DNA of 64,000 nt from the NCBI GenBank assembly GCA_947480335.1, contig CANKCB010000001.1:1-64000 (forward strand). The letters are read 5' to 3'. This document shows positions 29,517 through 32,103 of the stretch, piece after piece (positions within the stretch are counted from its first letter, which is position 1; each line of letters opens with the position of its first letter). The stretch is from Gammaproteobacteria bacterium (lineage in GTDB: Bacteria > Pseudomonadota > Gammaproteobacteria > Eutrophobiales > Eutrophobiaceae). The notes beneath the pieces were generated by a model. That model worked only from the letters and a program-made list of their open reading frames with translations. It was not told the origin of the DNA and ran no database searches. The translations under genes were made by a program, and so were the position numbers.

Positions 29517-30187
29517 TTCAGTTTACTGAGGTATACAAGGCTTACCCGTCTGGCAAGGAGGCGTTAAGGCGTATTAACCTGTTCATCGAACAGGGTGCCA
29601 TGGTATTTATTACGGGTCGTTCAGGCGCAGGCAAAACTACCATGCTCAGGCTGATCGGCCTGATTGAACGTCATTCGCGTGGCCAGATAATCGTGAACAG
29701 CCAGAATCTGGAACGCGTTACCGGAAACCGGATAGCCCTGTTTCGTCGCAGTATTGGTTTTATGTTTCAGGATCACCGCTTACTGAATGATCGCACCGTG
29801 TTTGATAATGTTGCGCTGCCTATGGTAGTAGCAGGTCATTCCTATCAGGAAACCAGAAAACGTGTGCACGCGGCTCTGGACAAGGTTGGTCTGCTGGCCC
29901 AGGAAAAGTCGTTCCCGCTGGCATTGTCTGGCGGCGAACAACAACGTGTTGGCATTGCCAGAGCCGTGGTTCATAGACCCGCTATACTGCTGGCAGACGA
30001 ACCCACGGGTAATCTGGATCCAGCACTATCGTGGGAGAGCATGAAGCTGTTTGAACAATTTAACCAGATTGGTGTCACCGTTGTTATTGCCAGCCATGAT
30101 CTGGAAATGATTAGAAAGCTGAAAAAATCTATCGTTACGCTGAAGTCCGGCAAGCTACTAACGGCTGGCGGAGAAGCTGAGGAATGA
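29513..30187 (+). CDS. ftsE: Cell division ATP-binding protein FtsE
   Basis: The 224-residue ABC ATPase has Walker A GRSGAGKTT (35-43), the Q-loop in GFMFQDHRLL, signature LSGGEQQR, Walker B ILLADEP followed by TGNLDP, and the switch His in VIASHD. With FtsX it links the divisome to septal peptidoglycan hydrolysis. It overlaps ftsY and ftsX by 4 bases (ATGA) on each side, so translation is coupled. Confidence 0.96.
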   Translation: MIQFTEVYKAYPSGKEALRRINLFIEQGAMVFITGRSGAGKTTMLRLIGLIERHSRGQIIVNSQNLERVTGNRIALFRRSIGFMFQDHRLLNDRTVFDNVALPMVVAGHSYQETRKRVHAALDKVGLLAQEKSFPLALSGGEQQRVGIARAVVHRPAILLADEPTGNLDPALSWESMKLFEQFNQIGVTVVIASHDLEMIRKLKKSIVTLKSGKLLTAGGEAEE

Positions 30188-31149
30188 ATAAACGCAGAAA
30201 CAGAAACGGCGTCACAGACGGGTTCAACTACAAAATGAAAGTCTGGCTGTCACAACACAACCAGGCATTTCAAGATAGTCTGGGGCAGTTGCAGCGCAAT
30301 CTTGCCGGCAATCTGTTTTCAATTGCCGTGATCGGCATCTCGCTGGCTTTGCCTGCAGGCTTTTATCTGTTGCTGGACAATGCACAAAAAGTGATGGAAA
30401 ACTGGGACGGCACTATCCAGATAGCGCTGTATCTGCACCCGGAGGTTAGTGATGAACGTGCAGACACAATAAAACAAGAATTGTCAGGACACGCGCTGAT
30501 AGAGCAAGTGACCCTGATTACCAAGGATCAGGCCTTACAGGAATACAAACAATTTTCAGGTTTCGGTGATGCGCTGGATGCGCTGGAAGAAAATCCACTG
30601 CCTTCAATGCTGTTGTTACAACCTCGTACCGAAGTCATCACTACCGAACAAGGCGAAGCCTTACTGGAAGAGTTAGGCAAATTGCCGGAGGTGGAAACCG
30701 CACAATTTGATCGACAGTGGGTTAAACGACTAATCGTAATACTACATATACTCAAACGCGCGGTCGTCATTCTTTCCACATTTTTATCCGTCGCGGTCCT
30801 GCTCATCATCGGCAATACCATAAGACTTTCCATCACCAACAAACGCCACGAAATTGCCATCAATAAACTGTTCGGGGCAACCAATGCATTTATACAAAGG
30901 CCTTTTCTATACAGCGGACTAATCTACGGAATTGCAGGCAGCGCACTGGCCTGGATGTTATTAATCCTGTCCACCGCGATCATGAAGGATCCGGTGAACC
31001 AGCTGGCCACACTCTACAATAGTGAGTTCAGACTGAGCGGGTTAAACGCGTTTGAGCTGTTGATACTAATCGTTATCGGCGGTGGACTGGGTTTATTTGG
31101 CTCCTGGATAGCTGTTGGCCGTCATATACGTGATACGGAACCAACGTAA
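30184..31149 (+). CDS. ftsX: Cell division transmembrane protein FtsX
   Basis: The 321-residue protein has a cytoplasmic N-terminus, four transmembrane helices (about residues 45-65, 190-215, 242-262 and 292-312) and a periplasmic loop between the first two that in other species contacts EnvC-type activators of amidases. It partners FtsE. It overlaps ftsE by 4 bases and ends 114 bases before rpoH. Confidence 0.94.
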   Translation: MNKRRNRNGVTDGFNYKMKVWLSQHNQAFQDSLGQLQRNLAGNLFSIAVIGISLALPAGFYLLLDNAQKVMENWDGTIQIALYLHPEVSDERADTIKQELSGHALIEQVTLITKDQALQEYKQFSGFGDALDALEENPLPSMLLLQPRTEVITTEQGEALLEELGKLPEVETAQFDRQWVKRLIVILHILKRAVVILSTFLSVAVLLIIGNTIRLSITNKRHEIAINKLFGATNAFIQRPFLYSGLIYGIAGSALAWMLLILSTAIMKDPVNQLATLYNSEFRLSGLNAFELLILIVIGGGLGLFGSWIAVGRHIRDTEPT

Positions 31150-31201
31150 CCTGTTGTTTATATAGTATTATTTATGGCTGTATTGTTGGCTTAAGGCATG
31201 T

Positions 31202-31228
31202 TTGGCACTCTATCTTACAGAGTGCTAA
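31202..31228. promoter_or_regulatory. CIRCE-like element (HrcA operator) upstream of rpoH
   Basis: The sequence TTGGCACTC (31202-31210), a 9-base spacer, then GAGTGCTAA (31220-31228) matches CIRCE (TTAGCACTC-N9-GAGTGCTAA) at 17 of 18 arm positions with the exact spacer. It lies 36 bases before the rpoH ATG. CIRCE is bound by the heat-shock repressor HrcA, usually at groESL and dnaK. hrcA is not in the window. Confidence 0.8.
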
Positions 31229-31263
31229 ACTTGCAGGTAATAGAAACAAACAGGACTATTACC

Positions 31264-32103
31264 ATGAATCTACAAATCGCTGTTCCGGTCGGTTCGCTGG
31301 AGTCATACATACACGCAGTCAACGTGATTCCGATGCTGTCCAAGGAACGAGAACAGGAGTTGGTCACTCGCCTGCGTACGAACGAAGATCTGGAAGCCGC
31401 CAGAGAGCTGGTGCTTTCCCACCTCCGTTTTGTGGTCAAGGTCGCGCGCGGTTATAACGGCTATGGTTTACCACAGGCCGATCTGATCCAGGAAGGCAAT
31501 ATTGGGTTGATGAAAGCCGTAAAACGGTTTGACCCGGCCTTTGGTGTCAGGTTGGTGTCATTTGCTGTGCACTGGATCCGTGCGGAAATCCATGAATATA
31601 TATTACGTAACTGGCGCATTGTTAAGGTTGCTACCACCAAAGCTCAGCGCAAGCTGTTCTTTAACCTCCGCTCTGCCAAACAACGATTGGGCTGGCTTAA
31701 TCGCGAAGAGATTGATTCCGTGGCCAAGGATCTGGGCGTACAACCGAGCGATGTCATTGAGATGGAAAAACGTATGGCTTCTCATGACGCTTCCTTTGAT
31801 GGCACAGCCGCCGATGACGAAGATGATGTGGTTTCTCCCGCATTGTATATTGAGGATCAGCGCAATGGGCCTGAACAGCAGATGGAAATGTCTCAAAACG
31901 AGACCGGTGATCATGAAAATCTGAAACAGGCGCTGGAATCGCTGGATGACCGTAGCCAGATGATCATACGTAAACGCTGGCTCGATAACGACAAGCTGAC
32001 CTTGCAGGAGCTGGCCGGGCAATTCAATGTTTCGGCTGAACGAATCCGCCAGCTTGAGGTAAATGCAATGAAAAGCCTGAAGCAGGCCATGCTGCTGGTG
32101 TGA
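31264..32103 (+). CDS. rpoH: RNA polymerase heat-shock sigma factor RpoH (sigma-32)
   Basis: ATG 31264 is chosen over an upstream in-frame ATG (31198) because AGGA lies 8 bases before it, [16 protein letters not shown] is the usual N-terminus, and the upstream start would place CIRCE inside the gene. The 279-residue protein has region 2 ([37 protein letters not shown]), the RpoH box-like segment [11 protein letters not shown], and region 4 helix-turn-helix ([21 protein letters not shown]). It directs transcription of heat-shock genes. The CIRCE-like element suggests repression by HrcA in addition to the usual post-transcriptional control. Confidence 0.95.

Follow-up and report, generated by a model that had tools for sequence, protein, structure and literature searches.

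A CIRCE operator before rpoH in a gammaproteobacterium, lying over a conserved promoter motif in its relatives

The repressor HrcA and its operator CIRCE control groESL and hrcA-grpE-dnaK in Bacillus subtilis and many other bacteria. The HrcA of B. subtilis needs GroE to stay active, and CIRCE usually lies directly 3' of a sigma-70 promoter. HrcA repression and sigma-32 are usually seen as parallel systems, largely because E. coli, the model for rpoH, has no HrcA. Promoter P3 of the E. coli rpoH gene is transcribed by RpoE (PMC8103513). For Geobacter sulfurreducens, Rodionov et al. (2004, Table 8; PMC545781) predicted a CIRCE in front of rpoH. Within a limited collection of papers, this prediction was the only report found on rpoH with HrcA or CIRCE, and no description of an overlap between CIRCE and a sigma-E promoter at rpoH was found there. 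A work of 2003 by Permina and Gelfand on beta-, gamma- and epsilon-proteobacteria may include cases in the class studied here. The link between HrcA and rpoH is not new in kind, as the operator and the regulator are ordinary and the target has been reported at least once. The breadth of the rpoH CIRCE and the layout of the composite promoter are possibly new.

The window, meaning the whole stretch of 64,000 nucleotides that was analysed, contained one site with at most three mismatches to CIRCE, and shuffled sequences gave 0.01. It read TTGGCACTC TATCTTACA GAGTGCTAA and differed from TTAGCACTC-N9-GAGTGCTAA by a single mismatch, G in place of A at arm base 3, which is a common variant (31 of 157 rpoH sites). 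This confirmed the earlier note, which had described a CIRCE-like site with 17 of 18 arm bases and the exact 9-base spacer. The downstream gene, which the note had called rpoH, scored above the cut-off of 323 bits for TIGR02392 rpoH_proteo (Table 1). A longer reading frame opens at 31198 and would place the CIRCE within coding sequence; this was ruled out, because the alignment with homologues begins at the ATG at 31264. The operator stood in front of rpoH as claimed, 35 bp before the ATG, a place in the promoter region or 5' leader that is typical of CIRCE at heat-shock genes, but in relatives it overlaps the promoter and is not merely upstream of it. The site is a genuine CIRCE. The gene order was ftsY-ftsE-ftsX-rpoH, and no terminator was found between ftsX and rpoH. 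Readthrough from ftsX could be a further source of rpoH mRNA, which counts against the best explanation.

Table 1. Features of the window around the start of rpoH.
Feature	Position	Strand	Remarks
ftsX	30184..31149	+	TIGR00439 345 bits
Slot of sigma-E -35	31186..31192	+	GGAACTT in most relatives; here TTGGCTT, 3/7, lost
CIRCE operator	31202..31228	+	arms TTGGCACTC / GAGTGCTAA, 9-base spacer; conserved in 157 non-redundant rpoH loci
Putative sigma-70-like promoter from CIRCE	31202..31231	+	TTGGCA (31202-31207), 18 bp, TAAACT (31226-31231), TG of an extended -10 at 31223-31224
Slot of sigma-E -10, inside CIRCE	31209..31213	+	TCTAA in many relatives; here TCTAT
Probable ribosome-binding site of rpoH, AGGA	31252..31255	+	direct reading
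rpoH, heat-shock sigma factor sigma-32, 279 aa	31264..32103	+	TIGR02392 409 bits, NF005143 429 bits

The earlier note had named the absence of hrcA from the genome as one finding that would speak against its proposal. One hrcA (G000:C15; TIGR00331, 329 bits, cut-off 197) was present; it was intact and was followed by grpE and dnaK. The note had also suggested a search for other CIRCE copies, and exactly two sites with at most three mismatches occurred genome-wide, the one before rpoH and one before groES. The latter lay directly after a sigma-70 promoter (TTGACT...TATATT). No CIRCE was found upstream of the hrcA of this genome (L003:1093-1159), where the best match had seven mismatches, or upstream of hrcA in four congeners at up to three mismatches; a CIRCE stood before hrcA in most of the family. 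Autoregulation of hrcA seems to have been lost in the genus of the window. In this genus, CIRCE was found only at groES and rpoH, so two HrcA targets are predicted there, groESL and rpoH. The hrcA CIRCEs of the family (L193-L207) had a form of their own, unlike the groES and rpoH sites, with TTTGCACTC as left arm (T or C at base 3) and an invariant right flank ATT. A general extended operator as the explanation of the conserved right flank was not favoured, as the rpoH, groES and hrcA sites each had their own flank.

The rpoH CIRCE is no peculiarity of this genome and is common in Gammaproteobacteria, a class taken here in the GTDB sense with Betaproteobacteria included. Fifty rpoH loci of relatives were read. 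In 44 of them a CIRCE was present with no more than two mismatches, and it usually stood 20–60 bp before the start codon. Within the family, all 30 members with readable upstream DNA had it. The rpoH locus of the remaining member (G019) was cut by a contig end, and at another contig end of this genome (L209) a CIRCE was followed by an apparent rpoH start. The loci of other families had the site in 14 of 19 cases, and four of the five loci without it came from genomes lacking hrcA. A strict pattern composed of CIRCE core, leader, ATG and RpoH motif was searched in 276 sampled genomes of this class. It was found in at least 107 genomes, 105 of which had hrcA; 100 genomes had hrcA without the pattern, and 69 had neither. 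These counts are lower bounds, because the strict pattern misses true sites in G010, G050, G053, and G057. Roughly half of all genomes with hrcA in the class lacked the pattern, which speaks against HrcA control of rpoH, although some of the sites it misses are true ones. The co-occurrence of hrcA and the CIRCE-rpoH pattern gave a Fisher P of 2e-15, with genomes counted as independent despite their relatedness.

A scan of named genomes yielded at least 118 CIRCE-rpoH loci. Among the matches listed were Nitrosomonas, Methylocaldum, Thioalkalivibrio, Dyella, Pseudoalteromonas, Rheinheimera, Alcanivorax, Thiobacillus, Gallionella, and a Desulfuromonadales bacterium. Two matching loci titled Verrucomicrobia and Chitinophaga (L069 and L100), which also carried the sigma-E -35, are probably misbinned proteobacterial contigs. 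In three genomes (G119, G155, and G052; assemblies 97–99% complete) the rpoH CIRCE was present and hrcA was not found, which also counts against the best explanation; either the assembly lacks hrcA, or the site persists after the loss of its repressor. Two tandem CIRCE-like sites about 32 bp apart, one perfect and one with a single mismatch, preceded rpoH in G046 (L050). The rpoH CIRCE of G048 (L044), a genome with hrcA, was a variant, TTAGCAGTC...GATTGCTAA, with both arms changed at paired positions.

The 157 non-redundant rpoH loci were aligned with CIRCE as the anchor. The mean pairwise identity of the arms was 0.96. Part of this value comes from the search itself, since the pattern used for the named loci fixes six inner bases per arm; relatives found by RpoH protein had the same arm conservation. 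The identity was at chance level in the mid-spacer (0.255) and was 0.259 in the upstream DNA. Three further blocks were conserved, none of which belonged to any search pattern. One was GGAACTT (at least 6 of 7 bases) starting 15–17 bases before CIRCE, which occurred in 83 of the 157 loci against 0.6 expected from shuffled upstream DNA. It was found at none of 25 groES CIRCEs and none of 15 hrcA CIRCEs. Another was the start of the spacer, which often opens with TAA, TCA or TTA and thus forms TCTNA with the last TC of the arm; base 11 was A in 110 of the 157 loci, compared with 2 of the 25 groES CIRCEs. The last was NAT or NCT after the right arm, with T at position 29 (window 31231) in 150 of the 157 loci and in 2 of the 25 groES CIRCEs.

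Judged by their motifs, the first two blocks are a sigma-E promoter with 15–17 bp spacing, and 93 of the 157 loci had at least 5 of 7 bases of the -35 together with the A of TCTNA. Across the class, a sigma-E promoter, GGAACTT-N16-TCTNA with its -10 inside CIRCE, was the type most often predicted beneath the operator. The third block may be an extended -10, TGCTAANAT, which with TTRGCA 18 bp upstream as the -35 would make a second, sigma-70 promoter out of the operator itself. A relative without hrcA (G038) kept GGAACTT-N16-TCTCA and had no CIRCE. The simplest reading is that rpoH had an old sigma-E promoter, that the HrcA operator was laid over its -10, and that the operator was lost together with hrcA.

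The earlier note had proposed that HrcA acts on rpoH, and this is supported at the sequence level by arms conserved across the class, by the joint occurrence of site and hrcA, and by the location of the site on the core promoter. We infer that HrcA binds and represses at rpoH. It is highly probable that the HrcA of this genome binds the CIRCE over the core rpoH promoter and that its GroE-dependent release co-induces rpoH and groESL. Because the operator and the promoter overlap, HrcA on CIRCE would keep RNA polymerase off the core promoter. Unfolded proteins would draw GroE away, HrcA would let go, and rpoH and groESL would be transcribed together; as sigma-32 and GroE rise, HrcA would rebind. 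The GroE feedback in this scheme follows general knowledge of B. subtilis HrcA and is proposed by analogy. Where a sigma-E promoter lies under the operator, HrcA would gate the envelope-stress input to rpoH. Thus, the rpoH CIRCE appears to join three stress systems at one spot.

A functionless chance match had nothing in its favour except the single mismatch. Base composition predicts 5e-5 sites with at most one mismatch per window and 0.002 per genome (2.42 Mb), and more than 100 genomes keep CIRCE at the same place; the probability of coincidence is practically nil, and it was ruled out. The promoter of the window itself raised another explanation, namely that this copy is a relic whose promoter has decayed and that HrcA has lost its importance for rpoH in this genome. 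The P3-type sigma-E motif (GGAACTT-N15..17-TCTNA) was not found at the window site (Table 1), although rpoE is present in the genome. The motif was likewise lost in two congeners, G001 and G004; G002 and G003 kept GAACT and TCTAA. However, all five genomes of the genus share TTGGCACTC and have 17 of 18 arm bases intact, whereas the flanks and the spacer have diverged, and hrcA is intact. The shared A to G change also brings TTAGCA, the putative -35, closer to the sigma-70 consensus TTGACA. The decay of the sigma-E motif leaves the sigma-70-like promoter formed by the CIRCE arms as the remaining candidate in this genome; TTGGCA-N18-TAAACT matches at 9 of 12 positions and is weak alone, being no rarer than in shuffled sequence (shuffles give 0.7). 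We consider a relic quite improbable.

The inverted repeat might also do most of its work in the transcript of rpoH, where a 5' hairpin would affect stability or translation. The changes in the arms were lopsided (P = 1e-7) in a way that suits a hairpin, because A to G at base 3 (31 times) keeps a G-U pair and T to C at its partner (2 times) would not. The same lopsidedness is also explained if this T is part of a promoter element, TAANAT. The exact HrcA consensus was preserved beyond mere pairing, and the site co-occurred with hrcA. From the promoter geometry, transcripts of either promoter, with the sigma-E -10 or with TAANAT, would have their 5' ends within the right arm or beyond it and lack the full hairpin, which makes a role in RNA less likely. 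A hairpin as the main function is very improbable, and an operator for HrcA is the preferred explanation.

For the Gammaproteobacteria that keep HrcA, a wider proposal was considered, with the chances about evenly balanced: rpoH would commonly be under a composite element, an operator with a sigma-E -10 and overlapping sigma-70 hexamers. It would work as an AND gate, in which envelope stress raises sigma-32 only when there is also a demand for GroE in the cytosol, and E. coli would have lost it with hrcA and kept the sigma-E part. If the composite element works as laid out, HrcA would gate sigma-32 synthesis in a single circuit common in the class.

The case in G. sulfurreducens resembles the present locus in its operator (TTAGCACTC-N9-GAGTGCTAA), in rpoH as the target and in the presence of hrcA; its site is at -51 from the start codon. 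However, it belongs to another phylum and was listed as a single case, and no overlap with a sigma-E promoter was found described for it (PMC545781). Compared with the control of groESL and hrcA-grpE-dnaK, the repressor and the operator are the same, and the groES layout of this genome is standard. The difference is that the target here is a sigma factor gene and that the operator covers the -10 of the promoter instead of following it. The rpoH gene of E. coli follows ftsX, as in the window, and carries TGAACTT-N16-TCTGA, with spacing equal to that of the sigma-E promoter of the relatives; the GAACTT-N16-TCTGA geometry of P3 is that of most relatives, and the motif was lost from the copy in the window. 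In contrast, E. coli has no CIRCE at rpoH and no hrcA (it was absent among the hrcA control matches). If the wider proposal is true, E. coli would represent the remnant state after the loss of hrcA.
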